Shown piece after piece: positions 31,105-59,659 of a stretch of 64,000 nucleotides of DNA. Source of the DNA: Acanthopleura granulata. Its lineage: Eukaryota; Mollusca; Polyplacophora; Chitonida; Chitonidae. Both the position numbers and the translations under genes were made by a program. The notes below the pieces were generated by a model, which searched no databases, was not told the origin of the DNA, and worked only from the letters and a program-made list of their open reading frames with translations. Location of the stretch: NCBI GenBank assembly GCA_016165875.1, contig JABBOT010000033.1:1097357-1161356 (forward strand). Reading direction: 5' to 3'. The first letter of the stretch is position 1. Every line of letters starts with the position of its first letter.

Positions 31105-31984
31105 AAGAAAAGAACACATTTATACAAACTGTACCTTAAAAGAAAGAGCTTTACTTATGGTTAAATAAAAAATATCAATTTTCTGGTGGAAGTGCTTATT
31201 ACTTGAGTATTTAATAGTTAAACATCCAAGATTGAAAAGCCTTTGTAGGCCGCCATTTTAACAGATTACTTACGTCATCTTGCTTAGCTTTGCAAAGTAG
31301 CTCTTCTATCTTTGAAGGTAAAAACAAAAATCATGTAGATAACGTAATGGAGGGCTTCAGTGGGGACCCCAGCTCTAGTTCTAAAGATAGTGAATGTAAC
31401 TTCGGCTTACAAGGCTACCAGTTTGAATCGCCAAGGAGTGAGGCTGAGAGCAGTAGTTCGACCGACCATGCATCAAGCTCAAGCGAGTGGGAACTGGGAT
31501 TGCTGGCTTTGACAGGAGAAATCTGTGAAAGGACAGGTTGTGCTCTCTGCCTTCAGGACATCGCAATTCAGACACATTTTGGCAGTCTACAGCCACGCAT
31601 GCAGGCATGATGTGGCACTCTAGTACATCTCAAACTCTTCGTTTTTAGAGTTGGCTTTAACAGAACTTAAAATCCCCGATTATCACGATGTACAAACATG
31701 TTTAGCTAAGACTGGAAATGCACGTTAATTAAATGGTAGGAGTAAAACCTTAAGAACAGTGATGTCACAATGAATATTCAAGAGGAGGAAAGGAGGATTT
31801 TCATTGGACAAGCCTAAAACATGGCGGGACTTTCTATGTGCCCTGGACAGGTACAAATATGACAATGTTTAAAACAGTTTGTCTCTTTTACGAAACCTTT
31901 AAAAAATGTAAAAAAATAGTATTTCACAAAGTTTGTAAAGCTGTTTCATTTAAGGTGTAGGTTGTATAAATGTGTTCTTTTCTT
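31105..31984. mobile_element. TTAA-flanked 880-bp inverted-repeat DNA element, copy 2
   Basis: Bounded by TTAA at 31101-31104 and 31985-31988. It is collinear with copy 1 over its whole length with scattered substitutions (over 90% identical by eye). Its right end stops about 38 bases before the first supported IRF-zinc-finger coding exon, inside that exon's polypyrimidine/acceptor region. Confidence 0.85.
31381..31608 (-). pseudogene. THAP-like reading frame in element copy 2
   Basis: 75 codons starting MPACVAVDCQNVSELRCPEG and running through NLSFHRF. The C-x4-C spacing, the Asn after the second Cys and SFHRF match the first strand and loop of THAP domains. Downstream only CSQPH (C-x3-H) resembles the second zinc pair, and the conserved Trp and AVPTIF-type box are not seen. 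Probably a decayed transposase N-terminus. Confidence 0.4.
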
Positions 31985-32022: not shown

Positions 32023-32134
32023 ACTACTCCTAAAATCAGGTCTCAGATACTTCGGGACTCGGAGAACAAGAATGTCATGGCAACGCATGACAGCTCCACC
32101 GTTCAACACAGGAAGCCGAGTACCAATGATAAAG
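32023..32134 (+). CDS. IRF-zinc-finger gene, exon A (first supported)
   Basis: 112 nt between acceptor TGTATTTTCCAG and donor GTATGC. The frame is open throughout and ends in phase 1, which fits exon B. The first Met in frame is at 32077 (MATHDSSTVQHRKPS). Upstream codons could be 5' UTR or continue from an earlier exon. Recognised from splice sites and phase only, so less certain than later exons. Confidence 0.6.
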
Positions 32135-35100
32135 GTATGCAAGGCTGGGGTTTGAACCCAGGTATCGTCCATTTTGTTATTTATATTCAGGACCCAAGCG
32201 GTATTAATGAAATAAGATGCTGCCTTCATGACCAAGGGGGGTTAGCGTGGAATGACCCAGGTGCCTCTAGCCAGTGCGATCGCTGTGAGTTCAAGTACAA
32301 GTTCAGGTCTGCCAGCAACCTGCGCATGGTCGTGGCTTTTCCGTCGTATAAGTGAAATATTCCTGAATACAGCGTAATATGCCAATCAAAGAAATAAATA
32401 ACTAAATAATGAAGTAAGATTTTCATTGCTTTGTTGAGTAGGAACAGATACAGGACGTGATACAGGTGGGGTTTTTTTTTAAAGGGAAACACCTCATAAA
32501 AATGAACTTAGGGTGAGTGAAAAGGCCATTAAAAACTGTATCTGAAAATACCTTCACTGAATTTTTTAGATATTTTTGCACCAATATAAAGGTAGTCAAG
32601 TGTTATGATTGTGTGGTGGGTTTTATGAACAGTCTTGATAATGTGGTTCTGTAGCGACGTCACACAACTTTTTAAACACCTTTATGTTCAGCTCTGAATA
32701 TTATTCTTGTGAAGGGTACTCCTGTAATGTCTGCCTGCGTATGGAAACGCTAGTATGACATGAAATTTCTCCTCTAAGGCCGTAGAAATGTCGGCGTGAC
32801 TTTTCACTGCGTTCATCTGAAAAAATCTGAATAACCGGTGAAGGTATTCAGACAGTTTTAATGGCCTTTCCACTCGTCCTAAGTTCATTTTTACGAGGCC
32901 TTTCCCTGTAAGATTTTTGACTTCGCTCTACCTGGTTGAGTAAAGAAAAAAATTCTTGGTTAAATTCTTGGAATTACATCTAGATGTGTAATTGCGTGAT
33001 GCGTGAAAATCAGGTCAAGAAGTGGACTTAAAAGTCTTAAAGGTTTCCTGATAGCCGTGTCAGCGTTGATGATGAATGCCTCTCGCCATGGACAGTGTTG
33101 TGAACAGTGTGCAGGAGAACTGCAGGATAAGCCTGCTCATAGAGCTGGGTGTCAGGTGTAATTTGTACGTGAAATTAATGCTAAGAGTTGCGCGGCGAAG
33201 TGTTTGTGTGCTGATGGGGTGGTTTTCATACAGGATGAAGAATAGAGTTACAAAGAAATTCTTCAGGGAAAAAAAAAGACACCAAGGATATCAGGGGTCA
33301 GTGCACGCCTATAAAACTGCCGCCCCCCCCTCCCCCTCACAGCCTGTTCTGTAATGTACACCTCAAGGATGAAAACAGGAAGGAACAATTTTGAACTGGC
33401 TTTTCAAAACACCTGTTTGCATAGATACACGAACGCGGTCGAATGTTGTGTGGTGAATATTAGAGGGTCTTGACGACCGTAAAAAACATGTCCTTGATTG
33501 AACTCTTGTGTACAGCTACATACAGTCAGATTCCGAGCTGGGCTCAAATGGGGAAGTACCTAACTGTTCCTGTTCTGGGGGTAATTACTTTCAGTTTTGT
33601 TTTCAAATCATTGCGAGTTCAGTTTTATACAGAGTTCATAACTCTTGATCTATATAACCAATGAAATTAGCTGAGTGTAACAGATACACCTTTCACCAGA
33701 TGAGGAGTAAATTTTTTACATGCAATAAGTCATTTTTTTTTTTTCATGTACTGTACATATCATTGATTAAGGTAAATTACCTAAAATTTTGTCCGTGACT
33801 AATTTTGCTAAGTTTGCTGGACTGTGATAGTTTTACTGATGATAGAATGTGTGTGTGTTATCATACTGGATAAAGGTTTCATCAACAAAGGTATTGTTTT
33901 ATGAGATTTGTTTGCGTCAAAAAATATACTGTATTGGCGTGAATTTACCGTAGTTCTATTTTATCTGTGTTGATAAAGTATTTGTAAATGTTGACGTCTT
34001 GGTAAGTAATGGAGTTTTGAGTTACAATATGAGGGAACACTGTTAGAAAACGTTGCTTGGCTTTTGTTTTTTCTTTGGTAAAGATTGTTCAGATTTCTGT
34101 GGACAATGAGGACTTGTTATTTTTTTCACATCTTACTGTGTACAAAAAATCACAAATAAGTTGATCTATGTTACTAGTTTCCAACCAGTATCAAACAGGA
34201 TTATAGGTTTGCGCCTCATCTGTCTATCTGTCATTTTGCCATTCTGTGAGTTTTCCTTTCATCTGTTTGTTGGTTAATAAGTCCTGACGGACACGAATCA
34301 GTTTTCCATGTATTTTCAAAAGTCTTGATCAAATTGACCAGCCACATGGCCTCACCATTGAAACCTGCAGATTAAGTTTGATTGTTTTGTAAAATTCTCT
34401 TTTGGTTGGAAATTTGAGAGAAAAGTTCCAAACCATCTTTTTGGTCAGTTTCATCCATTTTCTACAAATTACGTCTGTTTTTGTTTTGTTGTGGCTTTAT
34501 TTTCTTCATTTTGACCACAATCTAAATTTATTCCCTCAGATTACCTTTTCTTGAATCCACCCGAATCTTCCCCAAATCATAGTTGGACAAGAACTTGATG
34601 CGAGTAAAGGTTTGAAAACATATAAAAGCAAACAGATTTTGAGGATTCTGTGTTCCTAACTTTAGTGATCTGAAATAATGTATTTTTGTTTGTTTGTTTT
34701 TTTGGCAAACAATGAATTTGAATTTTTTTTTATGGCAATTTAAGTAGATGCTTGTAGATTTTGTGTACAGGTGTTATGATGAGAATCGTTGTCCTTAGGT
34801 CTGTGACATACACGTCCTTGTAGCAGTGGATCTGACCGCTTGAATGAAAATAATTCTGGGAAAAGCCTGTTCTACATGAGCAAGTTAATCATGTACTTGG
34901 TGGGGGGAGAGGAAGGGGAGATAACTTGTAGAACCTGTTTCACGCACAAACCTGACCTCCAGTCTGTACAAATGAGGAGCTGTCTAGGCCTCTGCTGTTT
35001 GTTTCATTATTTTCTCATTATTTTGGTTGAGAAAAATAGTGTAGTAATAATCAGTTAATAGATGTATGTCTTCGTTTGCAAACAAACTATGTAAATTTCA

Positions 35101-38100
35101 CAGTTAAATGTTCATGAGAATTTGGGAAGTCAATAATTAATTGCCTGTGACCTTAATACATGGTAAATCTCCAGTCATGTAATTAAATAATGAAGTTATT
35201 GTCTTTCACAAAAACTTTAGCAAGTAAAAATGCATGTTCTGAGGCACATAAGGACCTTGAAATGCCAACACTGAAGATTTTCTGATGAGAAATTCATCAG
35301 AAAACTTCTTAAAAAATTCTTAAGTGACTCTATAATGTGGATGAATCCGCCAGAATCAAGCAAAATGTGTCGCTGAAGAAATCCTTCACTTTGGCAGAAA
35401 TTCTCTGTTTATAACTTATTAATACTGTTCATTGAGTGTTTGGACACTAACCTACTTGTACAGGAACGTGCTGAGGTTAGATGAAAAATGAACAAAACTA
35501 GAAAATAGCTGTGGTGATCTTGAGTAGGAACCGACGACGACACAGCGACTATGTTAAAATTGTGAAAAACTTCCAGGGATATTTGTTGACATGAATGTAA
35601 CATGCACTTATGAATTTAAATAAATTACATTTTCAGAGAGATCTTGAGTAATATAGTGTACTGTAAGTGGCGTATAATTTCACCCCAAAAATCCAGTTTT
35701 AGATGCAAATAAATGCCATGAATTACCACTTTTGGAGCTGAAGCTGTCCTTTTTTTAGTACAATGTCATCCTGCCTTCCAAGTAAACTTCAAAATGCCTT
35801 TCTGCAATCAACAGAACTCTGAGAATAAAGAAGAATATGCAGCTTGACTGTGGGCGAAATTTGAAGTCATTGACGGTAATTTGATTTCATGAGAAACTCC
35901 AGTTTCTTGGATTCTTTGTCCATCTGTCGGTCAGTCTCTCGATCTTTGGTTTCCATGCAACAACTACTCCAAGTATTGTTTAATTTTGAGAAAATTTTAT
36001 TTGCAGGCTCACTTGAGTTTCCTAGATTCTGATTGGCTGTTGGTATATATTTTTTGATCAGATTTTGTGCGTAGTTTCACCATTTTCACGGCACCTGTAG
36101 ATCAGGTTCACAAACCTGCTTATTCCCTGGATTAGTTTTTCTTACTTAGCTGAGTATATACGGTATTTTCGCTAAACTTGCTTGATTCGTGGCTTTCTCT
36201 TTCTTTCAATCTGTCTGGATGTGTCTTGTCTTTTCACACAGGCACGTCTACAGAGACGTGTGAGACCACGATGCTCTCTCTGAAGTCGAAAGGCAAAGGA
36301 ACAGCAGCCCAGAGAGACGAGACACCGGCGGTTTCGTCGGCACAGAGCGGGTGCCTGACGGTTCGCCTGATTGTGGGAGAAAATGGGGTGAGATCTCGTC
36401 TCAGCTTTCTGTTAGTCTGAAGGTTTCTGTGCTCGGCTCATGTCTGAATTAGACGTGGCCAGGACTTGATATGTTTATTTGATTAACGTAAAAGCCATAT
36501 TCAACAAGTTTATGGACTGTCTTAGCGTCGTTTTGGCAAGATTGTCTGCCTCGGTGTTGGGAGATCAGAGATCAGTCCTGACTTGGGGCATACCAAAGAC
36601 TTGTGCTGCCTGTCTTGGCGTCATTTTGGCAAGATTGTCTGCCTTGGTGTTGGGAGATCAGAGATCAGTCCTGACTTGGGGCATACCAAAGACTTGTTGC
36701 TGCCTGTCTTGGCGTCATTTTGGCAAGATTGTCTGCCTCGGTGTTGGGAGATCAGAGATCAGTCCTGACTTGGGGCATACCAAAGACTTGTGCTGCCTGT
36801 CTTGACGTCGTTTTGGCAAGATTGTCTGCCTCGGTGTTGGGAGATCAGAGATCAGTCCTGACTTGGGGCATACCAAAGACTTGTGCTGCCTGTCTTGGCG
36901 TCATTTTGGCAAGATTGTCTGCCTCGGTGTTGGGAGATCAGAGATCAGTCTGACTTGGGGCATACCAAAGACTTGTTGCTGCCTGTCTTGGCGCTCTTCA
37001 CTGAGAGCTCAGAACAAGAAAGCAGAATTGGTTGTCATTATAAGGTGACAAACTGCCACAAGAAAATAAGAGTATATATATATATATATATATATATACT
37101 AAGGACACATGACTGAAAAATTGTTGAGTGTAACATAAAACCCAGGCATATATACATATGCACAGTCTTGTTTTTTAACTCATGGGACTGTTGTAGGTGG
37201 CTCACACCGGAATCGGGCACTAGTTGAGGATTTACTTGGAGGGAGTGACAATGTTGACCTGTGTTCTTTTTTGTTGCTAATCGGCATCTGATTGCTGTAT
37301 GTATCCGCTCTACATGAATATAATGTAACACTACACTTGTGTCGGTAAATTCTGCGAGAGACATTTAGGGGTTGTCAGAAGGGTTGTCAGGGGTCACAGA
37401 GGTTTTACATGGTGAAGAACTTCTCACTTGTTGGATGGCATTGTTCCCTGTACTATACATCTGAAGACATTGCTGGACAGTGTTGCCATCCAAGTTGGTA
37501 TCCGTTTAAAACTCCTGCAGTTTTACCTGTATGTGTATTTAATGTGGAAATATAACTGTTACAGCATGTTTAGCCAGAAAGAAAGGATCTGTGTGATTCA
37601 GCCTGTCCAATATGGTCCAAAAAGTCCATCATAGGAACTCAGTCTTTATTTCCATTTTAATCACCATAGAAAATGCCCCCTCCCCCAAAATAATGAAGAT
37701 ATTATATATTTGAAATCCGCACAAAATGGCCTTTTTGATAACGCCTGCTTTGTTTGAAGGTGGAAAAAAACAGAAAAATGACAACGTTGAGATGAAAGAG
37801 TGGGAAAAGTTAGTTGTCAGTGTTGTCCGAAAGAGTGGGATAAGTTAGTTGTCAGAGTTGTCTGAAAGAGTGGGATAAGTTAGTTGTCAGTGTTGTCTGA
37901 AAGAGTGGGATAAGTTAGTTGTCAGTGTTGTCCGAAAGAGTGGGATAAGTTAGTTGTCAGTGTTGTCTGAAAGAGTGGGATAAGTTAGTTGTCAGTGTTG
38001 TCTGAAAGAGTGGGATAAGTTAGTTGTCAGAGTTGTCTGAAAGAGTGGGATAAGTTAGTTGTCAGTGTTGTCCGAAAGAGTGGGATAAGTTAGTTGTCAG

Positions 38101-41100
38101 AGTTGTCTGAAAGAGTGGGATACGTTAGTTGTCAGTGTTGTCTGAAAAACTGGGATAAGTTAGTTGTCAGAGTTGTCTGAAAGAGTGGGATAAGTTAGAG
38201 TGGGATAAGTTAGTTGTCAGTGTTGTCTGAAAGAGGGGGATAAGTTAGTTGTCAGTGTTGTCTGCAATATATTTCTTGGACTTTGTTCAAGGAGAAAGAG
38301 ACTTGAAAATAATTTTTGTATGGGGGGTAATTGGGGCGACCTTTGGGTATGCACATGTGTAAGCTTTGTGTAATGATGTTATGGATGAGGATATAATACG
38401 TGTTTATCAAGTATTTTTGCACTAGAATTTGTCCTTTTCAGTTAACAGATTTGGATCATATTTATATTTTTAAGATGTTCGTAAATACTATCATAATTCA
38501 GGTTAAATGCATGTGTTTGGATGTAAAAAACAAGTTTAAAATCAAATAAATTTATTAGATAAATATGAACAGTTGGTCCCAATTACCCACAGTACAAAAA
38601 TATTTTTAAATAGCCTTTTCTCCTGGAAAAAAAAATCCAAGTAAATATTAAAGTCCGTATTTGCAAGTAAGTTTTGATGCTCTTTCATCTGGGGTTGGCA
38701 TCATTTTTATGCTTTCTTCTCCTTTAAATGTGGTTGGCTCTATTATGAGGCTATAGCCCTGAATTCATTCAAGTCAGTGAGGAAGCCCATCCAGATGTAC
38801 TTGTAGATCTTTGTCCTTTTTCAAGAAACGAAATGAAATGAAATGAAATTTCTTTTCACAATTTTTGAAACCAACATTTATTTCTTTGATTTAATACCTG
38901 TGTCCTGTTCCTGAACGCTGTCGTGCCCTCGACTTCACAGTGTCATCCATCATGGATTAATTAATCACCTGCTCAGTCAGTCAGTCATGAATCCTCAGGT
39001 ATTTACCTGTATTGTCGTTTGTGAAAAATAAAGGCACCAACCTATCAGTCAGTCAATCAGTCCATCCACCAGTCAATCAATCCTTTTCTCTCCGGTTATG
39101 CAGATGGTGTACATTTTCGTCCAATGATACAACTCACCTTAGTAATTATACAGCTCATTTTAGCGATAGTCCATCGTCATTCAGTCCTAGTAATCATGGG
39201 GGTTTCCATGGCTCAGATGGTTAGCGCACTAGCACAGCGTTACGACCTAGGAGCCTCCCACCAATGTGGTTGCTGTGAGTTCAAGTCCAGCTCGTGCTAG
39301 TTTTCTCTCCGGCCATACGTGGAAATGTCCGACAGCAACCTATAGATTGTCGTGGGTTTCCCCCGGGGCCCGGGCTCTGCCAGGCTTTCTCCCACTGTAA
39401 TGCTGGCTGCTATCGTATAAGTGAGATATTCTTTAGTACGGTGTAAAACACAAGTCAAATAAAAAAAATGAGTCCTAGTAATCGTGCAACTCATGTTAGT
39501 AACCATACAACTCACCTTAGTAACCGTACAAGTAATCGTACAACTCACCTTAGTAACCATACAACTCACCTTAGTAATCATACAGCTCACCTTAGTAATC
39601 GTACAATTCACCTTAGTAACCACACAACTCACCTTAGTAATCGTACAACTCACCTGTCAGTGGAACAGTGAATTCGATGATCAAGCGAGCGATTAATTTA
39701 TTCTTGCAGGTTATGCAGACAGTGTACACCAACTGTCACCTGTCCAAGGACAAATTCAGTGGCGGGAAAATGAAAGTTGCGGAGAAGCGAAACAGTGGGC
39801 AGGAAATAGTCCGTGTTCCGTTGCCACAGGCATTTGTCAATAAAATGAAAACCCTGGCTTCAGCTGCTGCGACAGTGCCAACAGCACCAGGTGCGACGCC
39901 TTCTCTTCCTGATGTTGGAAAATGCTCTATTGTCATGGTAACCTCATCCATGACCTTAACAGAGACCTCGGTCGCCAAGTCGTTGGGCTTTGTCCCCGCC
40001 ACAAGTTGTCCAGTTTCAACAACAGCGTTGACGTTTTCTACAAATGCGCCGATACTGTTTTCAAACATGCCGACGATAGTGTCAGAAACGCTGACAGTGC
40101 CCTCTGGTGCCACAGTTCTTAACAAGCCACCGGAGATCTCAGCGGCACCACTCCCAGACAAGAAGCCGGACAAAAATGCCGGCGGCAAAACCAAAAAGGA
40201 AAGTGGCACTGGATGCTTAATCCCTAAGACGAAGTCGAGGAACAGGTATCGTCAGTGCCAGCGCCTACGCATGCGCCCCTGGCTGCTTATGCTGCTGAAT
40301 TCTGGAGATGTTCCGGGGCTTCAGTGGGTCAACCAGGAAGAGAGGATTTTCTCCATTCCCTGGAAACATGCCTCAGGGAGAACCTGGAAGGGACAGGATG
40401 CTGATCTCTTTGAGCGCTATGCCATCCATACAGGTGAGGTTTTGAGCTTTGGTCAGCACACTATCCATATAGGTGAGGCTTTGAGCTTTGACTCACCACA
40501 CCATCTATACAGGTGAGGTTTTGAGCTTTGACACACTACAATATCCATACAGGTGAGGTTTTGAGCTTTGGTCACCACACCATCTATACAGGTGAGGTTT
40601 TGAGCTTTAGTCACCACACCGTATATACATGTGAGATTTTGAGCTTTGACTCACTACACCATCTATACAGGTGAGGTTTTGAGCTTTGATACACTACACC
40701 ATCCATACAGGTGAGGTTTTGAGCTTTGGTCACCACACCATCTATACAGGTGAGGTTTTGAGCTTTGACTCACTACACCATCCATACAGGTGAGGTTTTG
40801 AGCTTTGACTCACTACACCATCCATACAGGTGAGTTTTTGAGCTTTGGTCACTGCCATCCATACAGGTGAGGTTTTGAGCTTTGGTCACTGCGCCATCCA
40901 TACAGGTGAGGTTTTGAACTTTGACTCACTACACCATAAATACAGGTGAGGGTTTGAGCTTTGGATCACTACACCATCTATACAGGTGAGGTTTTGAACT
41001 TTGACACACTACACCATCCATACAGGTGAGGTTTTGAGCTTTGATCAGCACACTATCCATATAGGTGAGGCTTTGAGCTTTGGTCACCACACCATATATA

Positions 41101-44100
41101 CATATGAGATTTTGAGCTTTGACTCACTACACCATCCATACAGGTGAGGTTTTGAGCTTTGACTCACCACACCATCTATACAGGTGAGGTTTTGAGCTTG
41201 ACACACTACACTATCCATACAGGTGAGGTTTTGAGCTTTGACTCACTACACCATCCATACAGGTGAGGTTTTGAGCTTTGACTCACTACACCATCCATAC
41301 AGGCGAGGCTTTGAGTTTTGACTCACTACGCCATCCATACAGGTGAGGTTTTGAGCTTTGACTCACTACACCATCCATACAGGTGAGGTTTTGAGCTTTG
41401 ACTCACTACACCATCCATACAGGTTAGGTTTTGAGCTTTGAATCACTACACCATCCATACAGGTGAGGTTTTGGGCTTTGACTCACTACACCATCTATAC
41501 AGGTGAGGGTTTGAGCTTTGACACACTACACCATCCATACAGGTGAGGTTTTGAGCTTTGGTCACTGTGCCATCCATACAGGTGAGGTTTTGAGCTTTGG
41601 TCACTGTGCCATCCATACAGGTGAGGTTTTGAGCTTTGGTCACTGTGCCATCCATACAGGTGAGGTTTTGAGCTTTGGTCACTGTGCCATCCATACAGGT
41701 GAGGTTTTGAACTTTGGTCACTGTGCCATCCATACAGGTTAGGTTTTGAGCTTTGAATCACTACACCATCCATACAGGTGAGGTTTTGAACTTTGACTCA
41801 CTACACCATCTATACAGGTGAGGTTTTGAGCTTTGGTCACTGTGCCATCCATACAGGTGAGGTTTTGAACTTTGGTCACTGTGCCATCCATACAGGTTAG
41901 GTTTTGAGCTTTGAATCACTACACCATCCATACAGGTGAGGTTTTGAGCTTTGAATCACTACACCATCCATACAGGTGAGATTTTGAGCTTTGACTCACT
42001 ACACCATCTATACAGGTGAGGGTTTGAGCTTTGGTCACTGTGCCATCCATACAGGTGAGATTTTGAGCTTTGACTCACTACACCATCCATACAGGTGAGG
42101 TTTTGAGCTTTGACTCACTACACCATTCATACAGGTGAGATTTCGAGCTTTGACTCACTACACCATCCATACAGGTGAGGTTTTGAGCTTTGAATCACTA
42201 CACCATCCATACAGGTGAGATTTTGAGCTTTGACTCACTACACCATCCATACAGGTGAGGGTTTGAGCTTTGACTCACTACACCATAAATACAGGTGAGG
42301 CTTTGAGCTTTGGACCCCACACCATCTATACGGGTGAGGTTTTGAGCTTTGACTCACTACACCATCCATGCAGGTGAGGTTTTGAACTTTGACTTACCAC
42401 ACCATTCATACAGGTGAGATTTTGAGCTTTGACTTGCTAAGATCCTAAGAGAATTCAACCGTAAATCATCCATAACATTAAGGTTAAGGATTATTGAAGC
42501 TATAAACTGGATAACTGATAACTGCTCAAACCATGGGTCCCAGGTAGTGGAAATGCTGGCATCCTGTGAGTGTCAGGCCTGGAACCAGGGAGGGTGCATG
42601 TCCAGCTCGTGCTGTTTCAACTGCAGCGGAAAGTGAAAATGTCTGTCACATACCTGCAAAAGGTGAGTGGTTTTACACTTGCCATTCTGGTTTCCTCTGT
42701 CCGTTAACATGACCACCAGTCAAGCAAACCTTATTAGACCATCCTTAAAAAACTGTTTGATGTGCACAACTTGACCCTATGAGAAAAAATAGGGAATTCT
42801 TTTTTTGTTTCTTTTTATTCATGCTCTTGCAAAAGATAGGCATTTTAAAGAAATTAACATGAAGAGAAAAATTAAAAAAAAAACTTCATCAAAATACCAA
42901 TAAAACTTTTGAGTAGGGCTCTTTTTTGAAAAGTCAGTCAGGGTATGGACAACCAGCAAATTTTTAAGGATGGCCTTAAACTGTAACCCGGACAAGGGGT
43001 AGCAGGAGCAAATGGAATCTAACCAACTTGTCGTCGTTGTTTGACCAGGTAAGCACACCATTGGAGGTCAGGGTGATCATAAGCGCTGGAAGGCAAACTT
43101 CCGATGTGCGTTGAACAGTTTGCACGACGTGGAGGAGCTGCACGACCGCAGCATGAAGACGGGAGAGTTCGCTTACAAGCTCTACCGCTTCCTCGAGGGG
43201 GACGAGAAGAAAGGCGTCAAGAAAGGTGCGTACTTCGTTTGTTCATTCATTTCATTGGAGTCATACGCTCTACTCGAGAATATTTCACTTATGCGACGGC
43301 AGCCAGCATTATGGCGGGAGGAAACTGAGCAGAGTCGGAGGGAAAGCTACAACCATCTGGAGGTTGCTGACGTACCTTCCCATGACCATCTGCAGGTTGC
43401 TGGCAACCCTTCCCACAAGGTGAACAGTATTTTATACAGGCAGCTATATCTGTGGTAGCTCCTCAACTTGTACATTGCAGATCGTTTCTGTCTGTCTGGT
43501 CTCTGCTCCAGAGAGTTGGTTCTTAAAGCCTTGAAAGTGAAATCTTCTTGGGTATGTGTGAAATCGCACTGAAAATGAACTTGGTTTTAAAAAAGGTCTT
43601 AAGCTGCTGTAATTCCTCAACCTTATAGCATGTTTGCGTTTTCATTCAAGCATATTCTGAACTCATTATTCTGTGTTAACTGATAAAATTATACTTTTTG
43701 TGAAATCCTGAAACTGGCCAATTCAACCACTGTAGTTTTGTCTCCAAAATCTAATTAAAAATGTTCATGAATTCCACAGAAATTTGCCCCTTTCATATGG
43801 GAAAAGGTTGAGGAATTAGAGGAAATAGAAATGAAGGGAGTTGAACCTGATTGGCTTCAAAGCGAATTAAAAAAGTCAAGGATAAGTCTCTTCGTTGATC
43901 CGTCTTTTCAGACTTGAGTCCACTGAAGTGGAACAGAGAATTGACCTTTGGTTATATTGTTTCCAATCATCACCATCAGCCAATTAGTATTGATTCTCTT
44001 CTGTGTACCTTCAGTAAGAAAAAGAGATGAAATGTGTGAATTTGAGATCAACAAGGGAGACAACCCAATGTAATCTTAAAGTGGTTATCTCCCTGTTATC

Positions 44101-47100
44101 ATGACAAGAGCTCTAGCTCTGTTGGCAAATGTGTTTTATTTTTATTGCCGTGTTCTTTTTTGGGGGGGGGAGGGGGACGCTGATCCTTAATTCACTTAAA
44201 AGTCTTTATAGAAAGTTAAGAGAAACATCGTAATCATTTTTTAAAACATTTTTTATTGTACAGTTTACCAAATGTAGAATGAATGAATGATTATGGATTA
44301 ACGCCACGTCAAATGTATTTTTCAAATGAAAAAGTAGCTAGATCAACCCCTTAATGCAGTTATAGTATGAAATCACTGGTCTTGTTTTAGAAAACCTGAC
44401 ATAATATAGTTTTGAAAGAGAAATGTGGCTGGCCTATTTTCCAGGAAAGCTGAGTGGGCGGCGTCTGTCTGAGTCGAGTGGGGGAGATATAGCAGACATG
44501 TCAGAAGATCAGAGTGTGGGCGAAGGAAACATTGCCTCGAAAGTGGTAAGGAACCCGGGGAGGAGTTTGACGCAAAGGGTGAAGGGTTACCTATACTCCC
44601 TCCATGACTTACACGCAGGTTGTCTAATGTTTTAGGGATTGATACAGGTGCTCGTTGTGTTCATTGAAAGGACCTTTCTGAAAAGTTAAATGCGCAAAAA
44701 TTTGAAAAAATCAAATGATTTTATGATAAAAGATCAAACGTTTTTCTTATTAAATTTGTACCTCAAAATACGTCCTAGTAATTCACAAAGATGGTTTACT
44801 GTATAGTTGTGAGTTACAGATTAACAGGTGGGCTACTGGTAGTTTCGTGAGCGTGAGGCTAGTGTGTTTGAATCAAGAACATGAGCGGTTCCGACAGATG
44901 TTGCATTTGTTTGTACATTCGCTGCTGTTTTGATCCCTTTTGCCTCACTACATTGGGCAATTTTTCAAAAAGCAAATAAGAACCCTAGAAAAATTCCTGG
45001 ATCCAACACTGTGTTTATTGAAGATCCACTTGTCTCCCACCAATATAGGGTGCATATCTGTATATCACATGTAGGAAAGTTAGTCAGTAATTTGCCAAAG
45101 GTTGGGTGGTTTATATACCTTGGGAATTCTGGTTTCCTCCATCCATGAAAACAACCTCTGTATTGGTGAAATATCATTGAGAATGGTGGTAAAATTGAAA
45201 TAAATGAATAAATCATTGATGTAGGGTTCTCCTGTTTACAAACAGTCAGACATTCGTTGAGGATGGTTAAACAGTTTGTGGCCAAGACGTTCTGCCTATC
45301 TGTCTGTCACATGTGGGAAAGTTTGACAATAACTTACCAGAGGTTGGTGGTTTTCCTCCAACCATAAAACTGATGCACCACTAAACGTTCTCTAACTGGT
45401 CAGTTTCACATGCTTTATCCACTTTTCACGTAATTTCTGAACGCAGGATAACTGAAGAAGTCATGTATTTTGTTGTGCTCTTGACTCCCCAGAGAATGTT
45501 CACAGGTACAACAGATTTTGTTTTTAACGCGGGCGTGTTGGTTTTGTTTTGTTTTTTTTTAGGAAGGTGATGAGGACCAGAAGACTGCAGATCTCTGTTT
45601 GCCTCATCCTCCGGAGATCAAAGATCATAACTACTCGTTTGTGAAGTCTAATTCTCGCGTCCTAGTTAATGAATGTGTCAGGGTGATAGATGGTAAGTCC
45701 CAGGAGGTGAAGCGGGGTGGGGGCATTTTGAGGAAGGGGGAGGGGTGGGGGGATGGAAGCAGGTGTCAATAAGCAGTTGACGACGCTCGCATGTGCATTT
45801 GTTGAAGACGGCCTACCTTACAACAATATAGAGTGTGCATATTGATAAGTTCCCTGGGAAAAGTTCGCCAGTAACCTGCCAAAGTTAGGTGGTGTTACCC
45901 GAGGCACTCGAGGTCCACCTGTAAAACTATCTGGCATTGTAGTAGAGAAAACTTATTTGGTATGACGTTAAGAGCAAGAATGACAGAAATAGGTAAATGA
46001 TCACAATCTGTATTTGTTTCGAACGATGGTTACTGAAATCAGGTCAAACAAAATTTTAATTACATAATTATTAAATGGCGGTGAGAAAAAATGAAACAAA
46101 TATGCGTTGGTCTTGTTTTAGCCGATGCTGTCCGTAAGCTGCTGAACAAGGACATGAAGAAGAAGTCAGACAACGAAGATGAAGATGCGAATGAGGACGG
46201 CGGTGAGGAGGCGGAGTGCTTGAGCCCAGAGGTGGAGGACTCTGATTTATCTCCCCTTTCAAGCCTGCAAAGCTCTGCGATGCTATCCACACACAATTCT
46301 GTGGACGATACAATAGAAGCTGTCATTGAAGGGAGCCGAAATTTTGGTGAAGCGAATTTAGGCATGGAACGGCAGGTAAAGTCTGAATTGATCATAGACG
46401 ACAAATCGGCCCAGTTTGTCAGTAATGTGATGGAGGTAGATACCAGTCCTGAGACCACCATCCAATCAGAAAACAGGGTTCGGATCGCGTCGGCGCATTC
46501 ATTGGCGGCATTGAGTGGAATGCCGCTCTCCACAGACCAGGCAGAGGAAGAATCTAACATGGCCGCTAGCATCTTGTTGAATTTGAGTAGAATGAAAAGG
46601 AGAAATTTGCAACCGAGACAAGCTAGTTTCGGAAGCGAACACATGGAAGAGGAAACTCCTCCCAGCAACGTTGAGCAACACAGACCGGGAAGCGAAACAT
46701 GGGATTCAAACAACGACAACGTTCAGCCTGTTGCCACGGAGACCAGCTCTCCTTGTGAGGCACCCGAGGAACCCTTTAACTCCGTGGTGCCGCTGGACTT
46801 GAGGATTAAAACGGAGCCAATGGATGAAACGTACGAAACGTACAAAAGTTCGAACTCGTCTGATGCAGTGTATCGGTCCCGACACGAGAATTCAGACAGC
46901 GACGATGAAGAGGAGACTTGCTTGGAGTTGACCCCTCCTCCGGCACATAGTTACAGTCCACGGATTCGATCAGCATCAGACGACAGTCTTCCTCAACCTC
47001 TTGACCTCAGTGTCAAAGTGCACAACCTCATGTTGGTTGACTATCAGGACATCTCTCCGCAGACAACTGCATGTGGGTCATTGTACGGAGGCATTCATAA

Positions 47101-50100
47101 AAGCCACGCCCATTTCTCAGCTGAAGAACACAACAATCCGTCTGAACCCTTAGATTTACAGGTGAAAAAAATGCCCCACGACGCCAGAAGTCCGTCAACG
47201 AACGCGTGGAGAACTGAGGCCTATCAGGAAATGCCCTGTCAAAGTGAGCAACAAACCATGCTTCCCTTGGACCTCAGCATCGTCAAGTCAGAGCCAATGG
47301 ATGAGTCATACGAGCAGTGTTGCATGACAGAGGCCACGCCTCTTAACTACAGTAGCTTGGAGACGGAGAAGGTAAGAGCTGTCGGCCCGTTGCCAGATCT
47401 GATCCAGGCACCAAGCGACGACCAGGTGATGGGAGAGAAAGAAAGTCTGAAACAAGAACAGGTGAGTCTGTGGCCGATAGTGGCTTAAGAATTACCTCCC
47501 TTGAGGTCACTCTTCACCATATTTAGCAATTTTTTAATATTTTATTATGGGTCTATTGGTGAGAATCGGCAGAGGCCCATCATAGAGGCTTGAAAAAATG
47601 TGGAGAAATTGGCTAGACATTAAAATGGTGGAAATAAAGAATAAAGTGGTAGCGTCATCAGACGGCAGGTATGACATTTGACCTGACCCCTTGGGTTACT
47701 GTCCAAGAATATTGGACTGGACTAGAGGTAAAAACCGAAATAGAGGGGGTGTTAGTCTATCTATTTTGACATTAGTCGCAACACTTGAGTCCATCACCCG
47801 TACTCAAAAAAATCGCCGCAGATCTCCGAACTCAAAGTTGATGGAACTGCTTTCGTCTGTACTTGTGTCACGCGTATGACCTGACCCCTTGGGTTACTGT
47901 CCAAGAGTATATAACGGACAGGTACCTTGCCTGTCGCATTTACAGCCTGTGCAAATTTCCAGGCAATGTACAAGTCACACAGGAAGTGTCGCGCGTGGTT
48001 GGAAGACATGCAAGTTTTGTAAGTCAAGAAGATTAAATAATCAGATTTGTCACATGAAATAAAGTATTGTCATCTAAATAAAAAAACACAAAATATTGCA
48101 CAGAGGCAAAAATGTGTGAAAATGAGGCCCTTGCTCTGACAAACTCAAAGGTACAAGCACTCTCTTTCACAAGAGAGAAACAACAACAACACCATAGTAC
48201 TTTTTATATTCGAATCAGTTTTAGTAGTTGGTGGTTTTGCAACCCACCAAAACTGAAAATTGTCGCCTGCTGGCTACTAATGAACACCCAGATATATAAA
48301 CTTTCTTTTCTTAGCAATCACATCAAAAATAAGCTTCACAAGCCGAATTAATGTGATAATAGGATAAGAACATATTTAACTTAATTTTATAATTATTACA
48401 AAAATGTACATAGCTTATGCTTTCATGGTATCCCAGCAAGGCTCACATGCAATTTTTCACCTTTGTATCTCTTTCAGGGTAACTTCAGCAGTGGTTCTGT
48501 GCATGTGAGTGCCTGCAGACATTTCTTTGCTATTATAGAATTTTAATGAGCATATTATTAAACAAATATCTTGAAGCATTTGCAGCTTTGTGGACAATCT
48601 TAATTCGGTATTGAAAGAAATGTGATCTTCCGTTTTATTTATTTATGTATTTCATTGGTGTTGTATGCCATACCCAAGAATGTTTCACAAATACGACGGT
48701 GAGAGGAAACCAGACAGAGCCTGAGGGAAACCCACATTCATATCTGCAGGTTGCTGGAGTTTCGGGTTTGAGTATACTCATATAAATGCTTCTTGAAAAT
48801 ACCCCTTCCCCATCCTCACGAATCAAGTGTCCAATTGAAATTAGCAATTTTAACATACGGATTAACTGTTAGCTCTGATGTTGAATGATGAATCTGTAAA
48901 CTTTTTTAAAAATTTTATTTCATTTGCGAGTAATTTCGCTACACATGCATTTCATATGACTGTACTACATTTGTTGATCGGTTGTTTTCTATGGGGTCTT
49001 CTGCATGCATGTAACTGTAAATTTCCATAACATTGGTGTTAGGAGTTCAGTGATTTTGTGCAAGGTCTCAAGTCAGCTGGCAATACTCAAACCATAATTA
49101 TGTGGTGATAGTTTTCAGTTGACAAAATACATCTAGTTGATGCCCCTCACCAGTTATAAGCATGAGTTGTATATTTGAAGGGTGCAAAGACTTAAGGCAG
49201 TATTGGGCTGAAAATTTTCCCTAATACAAGCTTGACAAAAATTTAGAATAAACAGGTATTGTGCTATGGTGTGTTAACCTTGACCTATTGCAATGTACAG
49301 CAGTGGTACAAGTAATAAAGATATTTTGGACTTAGTTTGTGCTCACACAATCCAAACAAATAGAAATGGTAAGGACTTAGTTGCAAAAGTTTGTTAGGGA
49401 AAATGTCTACAGTCTCACAGTATCTCACAAGATGACATTCTCCATGACGGACACTATAACGGATAGGCACTTTGTGGGTGACATTCTCCATTACGGACAC
49501 AATAACGGATAGGCACTTTGTGGGTGACATTCTCCATTACGGACACTATAACGGATAGGCACTTTGTGGGTGACATTCTCCATTACGGACACAATAACGG
49601 ATAGGCACTTTGTGGGTGACATTCTCCATTACGGACACAATAACGGATAGGCACTTTGTGCGTGACATTCTCCATTACGGACACAGTAACGGATAGGCAC
49701 TTTGTGCGTGACATTCTCCATTACGGACACAATAACGGATAAGCACTTTGTGGGTGACATTCTCCATTACGGACACAATAACGGATAGGCACTTTGTGGG
49801 TGACATTCTCCATTACCGACACAATAACGGATAGGCACTTTGTGCGTGACATTCTCCATTACGGACACAATAACGGATAGGCACTTTGTGGGTGACATTC
49901 TCCATTACCGACACAATAACGGATATGCACTTTGTGCGTGACATTCTCCATTACGGACACAATAACGGAAAAGCACTTTGTGCGTGACATTCTCCATTAC
50001 GGACACAGTAACGGATAGGCACTTTGTGGGTGACATTCTCCATTACGGACACAATAACGGATAGGCACTTTGTGCGTGACATTCTCCATTACGGACACAA

Positions 50101-52531
50101 TAACGGATAGGCACTTTGTACGTGCACTCTCCATTACGGACACAATAACGGATAGGCACTTTGTGCGTGACATTCTCCATTACGGACACAATAACGGATA
50201 GGCACTTTGTGCGTGACATTCTCCATTACCGACACAATAACGGATAGGCACTTTGTGCGTGACATTCTCCATTACGGACACAATAACGGATAGGCACTTT
50301 CTGCATGGAGAAGACTAAAGAATTTTACTGGAAGACAGCTGGTCACCAGTTAGAAGAAGAATAAACGCAGAAGAAGGGCAACAGACCCATTTTACAGCCC
50401 TTGGGCTCCAGTTTATTTATTTGATTGGTGTTTTATGCTATTTCACTTATAGGACAGTGGCAAGCCTTATGATGGGGGGAAAACCGGGCAGAAACCCAAG
50501 TTAAGAAGATTTGTATATACACATGACAGTTTCTAGTATCAGCTGTTCTTGTGTAAAACTATACTCCAGATGTGACCCAGGGAAAGTCTTGTTTTGAAAT
50601 TGAAGATGCAGAAATCCTGTATGCTTCTGTCACTCAGTATAAATACAACAGTCAAACGAAATTTAAAGAAGAAAGGACAACTCATTTCATATTTTGAATT
50701 CTTTACATGGAATCACTTTTTTGCAACATGTGCTGCAGATCACATCATTTTTCCTCCCATGGGTCACTTTTTTGCGACGTGCTGATGATCACATCATTTT
50801 TCCTCCCATGGGTCACTTTTTTGCGACATGTGCTGCAGATCACATCATTTTTCCTCCCATGGGTCACTTTTTTGCGACGTGCTGATAATCACATCATTTT
50901 TCCTCCCATGGGTCACTTTTTTGCGACATGCTGATGATCACATCATTTTTCCTCCCATGGGTCACTTTTTTGCGACGTGCTAAAGATCACATCATTTTTC
51001 CTCCCATGGGTCACTTTTTTGCGACGTGCTGATGATCACATCATTTTTCCTCCCATGGGTCACTTTTTTGCGACGTGCTGAAGATCACATCATTTTTCCT
51101 CCCATGGGTCACTTTTTTGCGACGTGCTGAGATCACATCATTTTTCCTCCCATGGGTCACTTTTTTGCGACGTGCTGAAGATCACATCATTTTTCCTCCC
51201 ATGGGTCACTTTTTTGCGACGTGCTGATGATCACATCATTTTTCCTCCCATGGGTCACTTTTTTGCGACGTGCTGATGATCACATCATTTTTCCTCCCAT
51301 GGGTCACTTTTTTGCGACGTGCTGATGATCACATCATTTTTCCTCCCATGGGTCACTTTTTTGCGACGTGCTGAAGATCACATCATTTTTCCTCCCATGG
51401 GTCACTTTTACTTATGCAACCTTACCAGGTACATGCATCTGATAAGGTACAGGAGTTATAAAATGCTTTTAAAATTTCGAAGGGAATAGCTTTTGAAGAA
51501 AAACAAGTTGACTGGATTTAGCTTAGAAGTCAAAAGGTGTGTGAAATAGTTCCTGTTTTTCATGCCAAAGTCTGTCTAATCCCTGGTCTGAAGACTGAAT
51601 TTGTGTTTTGCAGAGCTCTGATGACTTCATAGACCTTAGTAACAAGAGCAAGAAGAAAGAGATAAAGGCCCTCGTTCCTATCGCACTGTTTATCAACCAA
51701 ATGGAGAAAGAAGCTGGTTCTGGCACAGCAGAGGTGGCATCAGTGTCAGGGGAGACAACTTCAGCAGCCACCAACGGGGAGCAAGCCAAGCTGTCCAATG
51801 TCGCTAGTTCTTCACCAACGATCAAGTCATTGCTGCAGAGGAAGACGCCGTTGAAGCGTCCACTTGTACCGACATGTGTTATGTGCCACATGACGTTTGC
51901 AAACCAACATCAGCTGTCGGCTCACATGGTCGGGAAGCACGCGACGGATGGGGCCAATTTGAATTTAGCAAAGAGGAAGTTGTTTCAGTGTACTGTGTGT
52001 GCGAAAATTTTCAAGGAAGGCTCGCGTTTGGAAAGACACATGAAGACGCACAAGGAAGCGTGGCAAGCGCAGTGCTCTGGCTGCAAGCAGGTTTTCAAGG
52101 ATCGGGATAAGTATTCAGAGCACACATTGCTGTGTTCGCCGGAAGGGCTTCGCTGTGATAGTTGTGGGGAGGTGTTCGGGGATCGCCCCACCTACACCCA
52201 GCACGTCAAAACCCATCACTCGGACGCCACATTTCTCGTCAAACCGTATCAGTGTGCGATTTGCAACAGCGCTTTTGAGGACTGCAATTTGTTACAGGAG
52301 CACATGGACCGTCACAAATCCGGGCAGATCACAGTGCCGTGTCGCAGGTGTGGCCAGCAGTTCGCCTCGTGGCGAGTGGACAGCGGCGGCTGGTCGTCCA
52401 TTTGTGAAGAATGCGAAGCCAAGTGGCCTAGAGACCAGGCTAAAGCGTCACTGTTACGGCAGAGTTTGTCTGGCATGTCAGTACTATTACAAGCCGTCGA
52501 GCGAACTGTCGGAGGGCCAGCAGTCAAGTAA
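32077..52531 (+). CDS. IRF DNA-binding domain / C2H2 zinc-finger fusion transcription factor (eight exons)
   Basis: Predicted nuclear DNA-binding regulator. Exons: 32077-32134 (coding part), 36242-36387, 39710-40433, 43049-43225, 44445-44545, 45563-45692, 46122-47461, 51614-52531. All junctions are GT/AG with matching phase and no internal stop, giving 1197 aa (1206 with the optional 27-nt exon at 48478-48504). Residues 1-252 are a Ser/Thr/Val/Pro-rich extension. Residues 253-366 are an IRF domain, closest by eye to IRF1/2 (RLRMRPWL, IPWKHA, YAIHTG, WKANFRCALNSL). Residues 370-970 are acidic and Ser-rich, with four PLDL motifs and ψKxE sites. Residues 980-1159 are five C2H2/C2HC fingers plus a CxxC...CxxC knuckle. 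No IRF-association domain is visible. The start at 32077 has a good Kozak context (GTCATGG), but the frame is open upstream in the exon, so a more 5' start is possible. Confidence 0.85.
32230..32408 (+). repeat. SINE-A with internal deletions
   Basis: GTGCGATCGCTGTGAGTTCA, CTGCCAGCAACCTGCGCATG, GTCGTATAAGTGAAATATTC and the tail GCCAATCAAAGAAATAAATA are present, with much of the core deleted. It lies about 100 bases past exon A. Confidence 0.75.
32409..36241 (+). other. Intron A-B, no further feature
   Basis: AT-rich intronic sequence. I see no SINE, minisatellite or additional phase-compatible exon with a convincing domain. Confidence 0.5.
36242..36387 (+). CDS. IRF-zinc-finger gene, exon B
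   Basis: 146 nt between acceptor CTTTTCACACAG and donor GTGAGATC. Enters in phase 1 and leaves in phase 0. It encodes residues 20-68, including MLSLKSKGKGTAAQRDE and LTVRLIVGENG. No domain recognised. Its Met (36268-36270 region) is an alternative start if exon A is noncoding. Confidence 0.7.
36512..36992. repeat. Minisatellite, about 93-bp unit, five copies, SINE-B-derived
   Basis: Repeats begin at 36541, 36634, 36728, 36821 and 36914 (ATTGTCTGCCTCGGTGTTGG). Each unit contains GGGAGATCAGAGATCAG, TCCTGACTTGGGGCATACCA and AAGACTTG. These match the SINE-B head (GGGAGATCTGAGTTC... GGGTCATGCCAAAGAC), so the array looks like an internal expansion of a SINE-B. A SINE-B-like 3' end sits at 37102-37160. 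Plus-strand open frames here are repeat artefacts. Confidence 0.85.
37073..37160 (+). repeat. (TA)n and SINE-B-like 3' end
   Basis: (TA)n at 37073-37098, then GGACACATGACTGAAAAATT GTTGAGTGTAACATAAAACC and CATATATACATATGC, like the end of the SINE-B copy near 63020-63085. Confidence 0.55.
37790..38268. repeat. Minisatellite, 35-bp unit, about 13 copies
   Basis: Repeats of GAAAGAGTGGGATAAGTTAG plus TTGTCAGTGTTGTCT with few substitutions and one shortened unit near 38195. In the IRF-zinc-finger intron B-C. Confidence 0.95.
39197..39470 (+). repeat. SINE-A, full length
   Basis: GGGGGTTTCCATGGCTCAGA, TGGTTAGCGCACTAGC (A box), CTGTGAGTTCAAGTCC, GTCGTGGGTTTCCCCC, CTGGCTGCTATCGTATAAG and a CAAGTCAAATAAAAAAAATG tail. 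It is followed at once by the 21-bp array. Confidence 0.85.
39470..39668. repeat. Minisatellite, about 21-bp unit
   Basis: Repeats of CAACTCACCTTAGTAATCGTA, about nine copies, ending 40 bases before exon C. Similar text (AACTCACCTTAGTAATTATA) at 39129-39200, before the SINE-A, suggests the SINE was inserted within the array. Confidence 0.9.
39710..40433 (+). CDS. IRF-zinc-finger gene, exon C (N-terminal extension and first half of IRF domain)
   Basis: 724 nt after acceptor ATTCTTGCAG, ending ...CCATCCATACAG before GTGAGG. Residues 69-309 plus one base of Gly310. Residues 69-252 are low-complexity Ser/Thr/Val/Pro/Lys-rich. The IRF domain starts at residue 253 (RLRMRPWL) with W259, PGLQW, IFSIPWKHA, GRTW and YAIHT. 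The IRF1 position that is Trp in SWAIHTG is Tyr here. Confidence 0.93.
40421..42440. repeat. Minisatellite, 39/40-bp unit, about 50 copies of the exon C splice donor
   Basis: Each unit reads CCATCCATACAGGTGAGGTT TTGAGCTTTG followed by ACTCACTACA (40) or GTCACTGTG (39). The first unit overlaps the last 13 bases of exon C and its donor, so the exon/intron boundary itself has been amplified. The 39-base block near 41560-41740 is open in frame and re-encodes AIHTGEVLSFGHC; this is repeat read-through, not a separate gene. Confidence 0.97.
43049..43225 (+). CDS. IRF-zinc-finger gene, exon D (second half of IRF domain)
   Basis: 177 nt between acceptor GTTTGACCAG and donor GTGCGT, phase 1 to phase 1, residues 310-368. 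It carries WKANFRCALNSLHDVEELHD RS and AYKLYRFLEG. The recognition-helix residues that contact GAAA in IRF1 (Arg, Cys, Asn, Ser of RCAxNS) are all present. Confidence 0.95.
43234..43420 (-). repeat. SINE-A, minus orientation, next to a splice donor
   Basis: TTCATTCATTTCATTGGAGT tail, CTCGAGAATATTTCACTTAT, GGCAGCCAGCATTATGG and CATCTGCAGGTTGCTGGCAA are present, with a duplicated ACCATCTG(G/C)AGGTTGCTG. It begins about 9 bases after the exon D donor. Confidence 0.8.
44445..44545 (+). CDS. IRF-zinc-finger gene, exon E
   Basis: 101 nt between acceptor CTATTTTCCAG and donor GTAAGG, phase 1 to phase 0, residues 369-402. Ser/Gly/Asp-rich linker (GRRLSESSGGDIADMSEDQS). No domain. Confidence 0.8.
45040..45390. 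repeat. Two diverged copies of a dispersed repeat
   Basis: CACATGTAGGAAAGTTAGTC ... TTGCCAAAGGTTGGGTGGTT (about 45065-45150) and CACATGTGGGAAAGTTTGAC ... TTACCAGAGGTTGGTGGTTT (about 45307-45370). Further weak copies lie near 7568, 15258, 42640 and 45845. Family unknown. Confidence 0.5.
45563..45692 (+). CDS. IRF-zinc-finger gene, exon F
   Basis: 130 nt between acceptor TTTTTTTTAG and donor GTAAGT, phase 0 to phase 1, residues 403-445. It includes LCLPHPPEIKDHNYSFVKS and LVNECVRVID. No domain recognised. Confidence 0.85.
46122..47461 (+). CDS. IRF-zinc-finger gene, exon G (acidic region with PLDL and SUMO-type motifs)
   Basis: 1340 nt between acceptor CTTGTTTTAG and donor GTGAGT, residues 446-892. 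Acidic/Lys-rich start (about 453-490), a basic stretch at 602-611 (RMKRRNLQPR), and PLDL motifs at 669-673 (PLDLR), 738-742 (PLDLS), 788-792 (PLDLQ) and 827-831 (PLDLS). PxDLS is the known binding motif for the corepressor CtBP. ψKxE sites occur at K532, K675, K834 and K889. The modules PLDLRIKTEPMDETYE and PLDLSIVKSEPMDESYE are near-duplicates. Reading past the donor gives a stop after eight codons. Confidence 0.92.
48478..48504 (+). CDS. Possible 27-nt cassette microexon (GNFSSGSVH)
   Basis: 27 bases between TTTGTATCTCTTTCAG and GTGAGTG, both strong splice sites. Length is a multiple of three and phase 0 fits between exons G and H, so it could be included or skipped without frame change. 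It would add nine residues between the PLDL region and the zinc-finger exon. No homologue to compare. Confidence 0.4.
48634..48775 (-). repeat. SINE-A, minus orientation, partial
   Basis: TTTTATTTATTTATGTATTT tail, CCAAGAATGTTTCACAAATA, GAGAGGAAACCAGACAGAGC and ATCTGCAGGTTGCTGG are present. Truncated before the head. Confidence 0.7.
49432..50306. repeat. Minisatellite, 45-bp unit, about 20 copies
   Basis: Repeats of GTGACATTCTCCATTACGGA plus CACAATAACGGATAGGCACT TTGTG, highly uniform with G/C and A/G variants, in intron G-H. 45 bases is 15 codons, so frames stay open locally, but the composition and context are intronic. Confidence 0.96.
50412..50502 (-). repeat. SINE-A 3' fragment
   Basis: TTTATTTATTTGATTGGTGT TTTATGC, ATTTCACTTATAGGACAGTG and GGGAAAACCGGGCAGAAACC are present, then truncated. 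Confidence 0.6.
50707..51408. repeat. Minisatellite, 48-50-bp unit, about 14 near-identical copies
   Basis: Repeats of GATCACATCATTTTTCCTCC plus CATGGGTCACTTTTTTGCGA CGTGCTGAT. Units differ almost only at the GATGATC/GAAGATC/GATAATC junction, implying recent amplification. It ends about 200 bases before exon H. Confidence 0.96.
51614..52531 (+). CDS. IRF-zinc-finger gene, exon H (C2H2 zinc fingers, terminal exon)
   Basis: 918 nt from acceptor TGTGTTTTGCAG to TAA, phase 0, residues 893-1197. Finger 1: C980, C983, H996, H1001. Finger 2: C1018, C1021, H1034, H1038. Finger 3 is C2HC: C1046, C1049, H1062, C1066. Finger 4: C1073, C1076, H1089, H1093. Finger 5: C1106, C1109, H1122, H1126. A four-Cys knuckle follows (C1135, C1138, C1156, C1159). 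Linkers are long and not TGEKP-type. A basic segment RKTPLKRP (968-975) is NLS-like. No Met begins the frame at the acceptor, supporting that it is a downstream exon. Confidence 0.93.
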   Translation, partial: SSDDFIDLSNKSKKKEIKALVPIALFINQMEKEAGSGTAEVASVSGETTSAATNGEQAKLSNVASSSPTIKSLLQRKTPLKRPLVPTCVMCHMTFANQHQLSAHMVGKHATDGANLNLAKRKLFQCTVCAKIFKEGSRLERHMKTHKEAWQAQCSGCKQVFKDRDKYSEHTLLCSPEGLRCDSCGEVFGDRPTYTQHVKTHHSDATFLVKPYQCAICNSAFEDCNLLQEHMDRHKSGQITVPCRRCGQQFASWRVDSGGWSSICEECEAKWPRDQAKASLLRQSLSGMSVLLQAVERTVGGPAVK

Positions 52532-58726: not shown

Positions 58727-59659
58727 ATTTGTCTTTCCGGAATCTCGGTATAATGTGACTGTGAATAGAGACGCGGTGAACTGGTGTGTTCGCCGTGGCG
58801 TTTTAGTGGGGAAACAAAAGAACCTAAGTATGGCGGTATTTAGTCCTGTCTGCTACAAGGTGACAACGTCGCGATATGACCGAAATAATGTTAAAACTGC
58901 GTTAAATCACAAGAAAAACAACTCCCCACCCAACCCTATCCCCAAACATGAGAGTTGTAAATTGTGCACATCGTAATTGTTCACGAAAAGACATTTTCCA
59001 TGGAGAAAAATTCGCCCATTGTAGGCCGATGTGCCCAGTGTCCCACTGTGTAATCGCACCTGTTCAGTTTTGAAACCGTTTCACCATATCAGAATATCGA
59101 TCATTTCAAATACTATACGTCACGATTTGCGATTATCCCAAAAGCTACCATTATCTCTTTCCTTCCGCGATTTAATTTGCTAGAAAATAATTAAGCGTTT
59201 GGGTATACTGAGTGCAGTGCGTAGAAAAAGAAAAAAATCTGCGAATTTTTTTATTATTTAGGCCTTTGGGCGACGAAAGAGTGCATTTTATATTAAGAGA
59301 CGTGTACAGATGCACAACATGACTGATTTTGTTCTGGAATTTGCCATATGCGCTTTTCTGATCTGCAAAGCGAGATTGTGATGTTCTACATCTACATGTC
59401 CAAATCGCATAGAAACACATCGTTTTAAACAGTGACGCTGCAGTGTTCGTGTGGGCCTAAGACCAAAGTGCATTTGGAGCACACATGCACCTAGTAGTGT
59501 GACACGATGCATGAAAGAACAAAGGAGCGCGCGGCCTGAGACCAACACAGGCAGGAAGAGGTTTCACGAATTTCTGATTTGTTGTGGATGTGGGACCCAC
59601 GATGTATTCTTATTAGACAAAGAGACGAAGCAATATTTATATAGGGGCGAGGTAGGTGC

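Follow-up and report, generated by a model that had tools for sequence, protein, structure and literature searches.

A predicted gene of eight exons in the chiton Acanthopleura granulata, lying within a window of 64,000 nucleotides at C33:1097357-1161356, combines an IRF1/2-type DNA-binding domain (DBD), a linker with four CtBP-type motifs and five zinc fingers, and its product is likely, on balance, to be a repressor that acts at IRF sites by recruiting CtBP. IRFs are central to antiviral control in animals, and few kinds of IRF tail have been described. If the repressor reading is true, IRFs with fingers and corepressor-type motifs, present in 12 mollusc species as well as A. granulata, would make up a separate regulatory class. 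Molluscs include farmed and wild shellfish, in which antiviral responses have been studied mainly via ordinary IRFs. The architecture makes two matters directly testable: silencing of an IRF site by CtBP, and the effect of the absence of fingers in gastropods.

Gene model and the join between exons 7 and 8

Eight exons between 32077 and 52531 of the + strand fit together by matching phases into a single frame of 1197 codons plus a stop, with GT-AG borders at all seven introns (Table 1). The preliminary description had joined phase-consistent exons for an IRF domain to those for a four-Cys knuckle preceded by five fingers of C2H2/C2HC type, and this holds in the model as one predicted frame; its residue numbering (DBD from 253, fingers and knuckle within 980-1159) also agrees. 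Exons 5 and 6 were located through residues of Liolophura P0001, and were found because that protein contains their counterparts; a six-exon version of the model has 1120 residues. The prediction is shakier for exons 1 and 2, for the proposed start and for the N-terminal stretch of exon 3, all of which lie outside the coverage of P0001.

Table 1. Positions in the window of the predicted exons, linker motifs, fingers and Cys knuckle.
Feature	Position	Strand	Basis or content
Exon 1 and proposed start codon	32077..32134	+	Predicted from open frame and GT donor; no relative reaches it
Exon 2	36242..36387	+	Predicted from AG/GT borders and frame fitting on either side; no relative reaches it
Exon 3	39710..40433	+	N-terminal extension and first half of IRF DBD; DBD from about 40262
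Exon 4	43049..43225	+	Second half of IRF DBD; Pfam IRF 39.8 bits
Exon 5, linker	44445..44545 (alternative donor 44542)	+	In-frame match to Liolophura P0001
Exon 6, linker	45563..45692	+	In-frame match to Liolophura P0001
Exon 7, linker with CtBP-type motifs	46122..47461	+	Open frame, phase-0 donor
PLDLR, residue 669, then IKTEPMDE	46790..46804	+	Sequence
PLDLS, residue 738	46997..47011	+	Sequence
PLDLQ, residue 788	47147..47161	+	Sequence
PLDLS, residue 827, then IVKSEPMDE	47264..47278	+	Sequence
Exon 8, C-terminal, with stop codon	51614..52531	+	Pfam zf-C2H2; 76% identity to P0001
Five C2H2/C2HC fingers, residues 980-1126	51875..52315	+	Sequence pattern; low-confidence model
Four-Cys knuckle, residues 1135-1159	52340..52414	+	Sequence; kept in Liolophura

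The join between exons 7 and 8, on which the fusion depends, can be judged against the nearest relative, P0001 (LOC135464439, Liolophura sinensis), which starts inside the DBD, is 78% identical to the whole model (alignment A1) and spans the join ungapped. Exon 8 supplies the strongest argument for a single gene. Its conservation begins at the first codon: 22 of the initial 29 residues are equal in Liolophura, and the next residue, Met in A. granulata, is Val there. Since exon 8 is thus conserved ahead of a Met that is not shared, the frame is most likely read into it from a preceding exon whose donor is of phase 0. Exon 7 has such a donor, and the exon 8 acceptor is likewise of phase 0.

Gene models might nonetheless have merged two adjacent genes, the first of IRF1/2 type with its end near exon 7 and the second a zinc-finger gene that contains exon 8. 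P0001 itself, like most of the bivalve records discussed below, looks automatically modelled, and an intron of 4.15 kb holding two minisatellites separates exons 7 and 8. Wrong joins may occur in databases; two fish records link an IRF to a DENN protein (P0014) and to a caspase (P0024), one record each, and are perhaps annotation errors, so that database fusions can mislead. A merger of two genes is very improbable, given the conservation of exon 8 from codon one, before any Met in common with Liolophura, the compatible phases, the ungapped passage of P0001 and the presence of IRF-plus-finger records in 12 species. The fusion of IRF domain and fingers in one predicted protein is well supported.

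Several repeats lie within or around the gene. Intron 3 starts with a minisatellite (40422-42434; 40-bp unit, about 51 copies) whose unit includes the final 12 coding bases of exon 3, encoding IHTG of the IRF domain, and the 5′ splice site. Between 40401 and exon 4 the donor CAG-GTGAG occurs 42 times in exact form, including the true site, and only the first, at 40433, leaves the frame open into exon 4; the remaining 41 are therefore decoy donors within the DBD-coding region. Intron 7 contains minisatellites at 49433-50304 (46 bp unit, 19 copies) and 50713-51409 (49 bp unit, 14 copies). Upstream of the gene, the + strand open reading frames 26715-27101 and 31236-31610 are closely alike (EGFSGD..CNFGLQGYQF..) and probably derive from a single repeat or from a domain carried by a transposon. 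Downstream, a long repeated stretch at 59637-61212 is strongly strand-asymmetric, with several frames open on both strands, and the GC skew over 60001-62000 in this region is 0.38.

The DNA-binding domain and the linker

The DBD is recognised by Pfam IRF (PF00605; cut-off 27) in exon 3 (61.9 bits, profile 1-58) and in exon 4 (39.8 bits, profile 64-104), and among solved structures it matches IRF2 best (131 bits), followed by IRF1 (124 bits). The recognition-helix segment KANFRCALNSL is conserved in the DBD alignment; we take its R, C, N and S to be the contact residues of the IRF1/2 structures, and the conserved segment suggests that the chiton DBD would bind GAAA repeats. Four of the five Trp of the IRF tryptophan repeat, as we presume the five are to be counted, are retained in that alignment, and the fifth is Tyr. 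No Pfam match to an IRF-association domain was obtained in exons 3, 4, 7 and 8, nor did P0001 match one at E 0.001.

Four PLDL[SRQ] motifs, missed by the preliminary description, stand in the exon 7 linker, and all four are retained in Liolophura. In two cases I(V)K[TS]EPMDE comes next, a sequence that would also fit a sumoylation consensus. The pattern [PAVI]LDL[STRQ] is found four times in the window protein, where 2000 shuffles with the domains masked average 0.02 (P 0.0005), a value to be read as descriptive since the pattern was picked after the chiton sequence had been read; the counts in bivalves are the fairer test. In a set of 14 IRF-plus-finger proteins (that of the window, P0001-P0010 and P0020-P0022, with Mya counted twice), the pattern is present in 13 and occurs two or more times in 12, while there is no match in 19 comparison proteins, made up of eight IRF-only proteins of mollusc type, five fish IRFs and six other zinc-finger proteins. 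The bivalve motifs carry A or V in place of P; Pecten P0008 has a single match (ALDLR), and Mytilus P0007 has fingers and no match. The looser pattern [PAV].DL[ST] separates the groups less sharply, with two matches in the window protein against 0.17 expected (P 0.014), and with 12/14 IRF-plus-finger proteins against 2/19 others (P0028, P0030).

Motifs of the PXDLS/PLDLS type recruit CtBP to DNA-bound repressors, and ZEB uses three of them (PMC6068344; PMC2749851). EVI1 represses through one CtBP motif, while its PFDLT is not bound by CTBP2 (PMC11095456), and motif likeness is therefore not binding. The A. granulata genome has one CtBP-like exon (L017, G000:C12:12448275-12448406), whose peptide matches CtBP2 (PDB 6wkw) at E 1.3e-23.

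On the likeness and number of its motifs, several as in ZEB, the linker would recruit the corepressor CtBP, and the protein would act in the manner of ZEB or EVI1 equipped with an IRF reading head. The roles of other mollusc IRFs point to innate-immune genes as the target set, and the protein may act as a standing brake at sites through which ordinary IRFs of the same animal activate genes, or may compete with those IRFs for them. Oyster IRFs respond to virus challenge and activate IFN-beta and ISRE reporters (PMC5557890), and the expression of oyster IRFs and the nuclear entry of IRF8 depend on cGAS/STING (PMC8218723); a corepressor-bound IRF would hence be expected to brake such sites. The same reporter activity would also suit an activator of IRF targets, whose fingers would contact cofactors and whose LDL motifs would bind a partner other than CtBP or nothing at all, and the Mytilus protein that lacks these motifs fits such a role. 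An activator is nevertheless unlikely in view of the excess of PLDL[SRQ] motifs over the shuffled mean, their full retention in Liolophura and the occurrence of at least one motif in nearly every relative.

The zinc fingers

The fingers start at residues 980, 1018, 1046, 1073 and 1106, and exon 8 scores 54.7 bits with Pfam zf-C2H2 (cut-off 25.2). A low-confidence structure prediction of exon 8 (mean pLDDT 48.7), too weak for a fold search, shows five units that resemble fingers and a sixth, smaller one. In alignment A1, Cys1159 of the adjoining knuckle does not vary and Cys1135 is almost invariant, a result that depends on the alignment, since gastropod rows are included.

According to the preliminary description, the fingers could serve as a second module for reading DNA, and the protein could recognise a composite site in which GAAA repeats are combined with a sequence specified by the fingers. 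Several features suit that proposal: the five units stand in tandem, are recognised by Pfam and resemble in sequence the arrays of PRDM9, ZNF568 and further finger proteins whose structures are solved, and the base-contact residues of fingers 1 and 2 are identical in the two chitons. The linkers point elsewhere. They measure 16, 7, 6 and 11 residues, none of those among the five chiton fingers is TGEKP-like, and the third finger is C2HC. Krueppel-type polydactyl arrays are joined by TGEKP-type linkers of seven residues, and by its linkers the chiton array is not of this type. At helix positions -1, 2, 3 and 6 the fingers read NHQA, ESRR, DDKE, DPTQ and DNLE in the window and NHQA, ESRR, NDKE, DPSE and NNLE in Liolophura; position -1 is acidic in four of the five window fingers as against two in Liolophura, and the base contacts of three of these four, fingers 3 to 5, differ between the chitons. 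The finger part of the bivalve relatives, moreover, is not recognisable as the same array.

These linkers, the C2HC finger, the acidic -1 positions and the divergent contacts lower the standing of the composite site, which we regard as improbable. By general rules, the linkers and helix residues favour docking over base reading: the chiton fingers resemble a second DNA-reading module little and would rather dock.

Relatives, origin and known systems

A search with the whole protein returned 19 proteins at E 0.001 or better, of which ten have both an IRF domain and C2H2 fingers, and a profile built from 12 sequences returned 27 matches, with three further such proteins (Ruditapes, Mercenaria and Mactra). 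Together these make 13 public records; of the 12 species that they represent, one is a chiton and eleven are bivalves. The searches scored 7988 (whole protein) and 7984 (profile) candidates that shared most words within length limits, so the counts do not establish absence from other phyla. The preliminary description knew of no IRF with zinc fingers; the architecture is already half catalogued, in that 13 records hold it, but none of the record names shown marks such a class ('uncharacterized protein', 'IRF2-like protein' and 'Interferon regulatory factor 2', among others). In the open-access literature, no paper on an IRF with C2H2 fingers was found by title or abstract start, and none on chitons and interferon regulatory factors. 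Two IRF1/2-like and five SMAD-domain IRFs are reported from Aplysia (PMC9334734) and four IRF-like genes from oyster (PMC5557890), none described with C2H2 fingers in the available parts of these articles; the available parts of four others (PMC2575513; PMC8218723; PMC4346834; PMC8998645) do not mention an IRF-finger protein.

The chiton and bivalve records (P0001-P0010, P0020-P0022) share with the window the order of an IRF domain followed by C2H2 fingers, and, as counted above, nearly all have LDL motifs. In alignment A1 the bivalve rows are 20-24% identical to the window protein, far below Liolophura; nine bivalve records checked have 6 to 15 fingers by pattern against its five, and in 8/9 full bivalve records the DBD motif begins no later than residue 107, the exception being Pecten at 322. 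The whole-protein search also returned eight IRF-only matches of mollusc type: a shorter isoform from Mytilus californianus, six gastropod proteins that bear names, and the unnamed P0016. The long gastropod IRFs (P0012, P0013, P0015 and P0017-P0019) resemble the chiton protein in being long with a single IRF domain, but no finger, and no LDL motif outside the DBD, was found in them, four of the six having been re-scanned. When the finger region alone was searched, 208 candidates yielded two matches, P0001 and an unnamed finger protein, P0032, with no IRF domain listed. Three IRF loci were seen in the chiton genome. Around the other two, on C2 and C83, no finger cluster was found (27 kb around each, open reading frames of at least 70 codons); the C2 gene has one lone finger-pattern match upstream.

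Two lines of support for a common origin of the chiton and bivalve proteins were tried and set aside. With hhalign, the chiton finger arrays matched five sets from four bivalve groups at E 1.9e-10 to 1.3e-15, and seven control sets of unrelated arrays scored equally well (E 4.7e-9 to 1.1e-15), so that no chiton-bivalve finger homology is claimed. With fingers masked, linker pairs reached E 0.011 at best; among the chiton matches, that of the C-terminal Cys knuckle to the oyster/mussel/scallop set scored highest, at a non-significant E of 0.014. Failure to align says little here, since the linkers of two bivalve groups whose DBDs group together (94/97, not starred) also fail to align (E 0.011).

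In the DBD tree the window sequence falls beside the IRF that the same animal carries on C2 (70/88, not starred), and the deep forks stay open. AU tests neither rejected nor showed a clade of chiton and bivalve (p-AU 0.306); the values for chiton with bivalve and gastropod, bivalve with gastropod, and chiton with gastropod were 0.315, 0.080 and 0.126. Separate IRF-zinc finger fusions in chitons and bivalves, instead of one ancestral mollusc fusion, would be consistent with the place of the chiton pair nearest the C2 IRF, with finger arrays and linkers that align no better than controls and with long gastropod IRFs found without fingers. The same order of parts, the same class of motif, the unrejected chiton-bivalve clade and the equally unaligned linkers of the two DBD-grouped bivalve groups count against convergence, which we think rather doubtful. 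As a tentative proposal, short of what we would call probable, the protein may belong to an ancestral mollusc IRF class that predates the split of chitons and bivalves and lost its fingers in gastropods. In such a class an IRF site would turn from an on-switch into an off-switch that is silenced by CtBP and sensed through NAD(H), and a repressor body like that of ZEB or EVI1 would carry the grafted reading head of an IRF.

The chiton protein resembles IRF1 and IRF2 in the best matches of its DBD, its conserved recognition-helix segment and the lack of an IRF-association domain match in the four exons scanned. It departs from their layout of an N-terminal DBD and an IRF1/2-type tail without fingers: its DBD is internal, from residue 253, the fifth Trp is Tyr, and CtBP-type linker motifs and five C-terminal fingers follow. 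EVI1 has zinc fingers and FOG has C2HC fingers, and neither these nor ZEB1/2 are known to contain an IRF domain. The chiton protein differs from all of them in having one, and its CtBP binding is predicted from motifs; what it has in common with ZEB1/2, EVI1 and FOG is the presence of PLDLS-like motifs, several in ZEB, together with zinc fingers.
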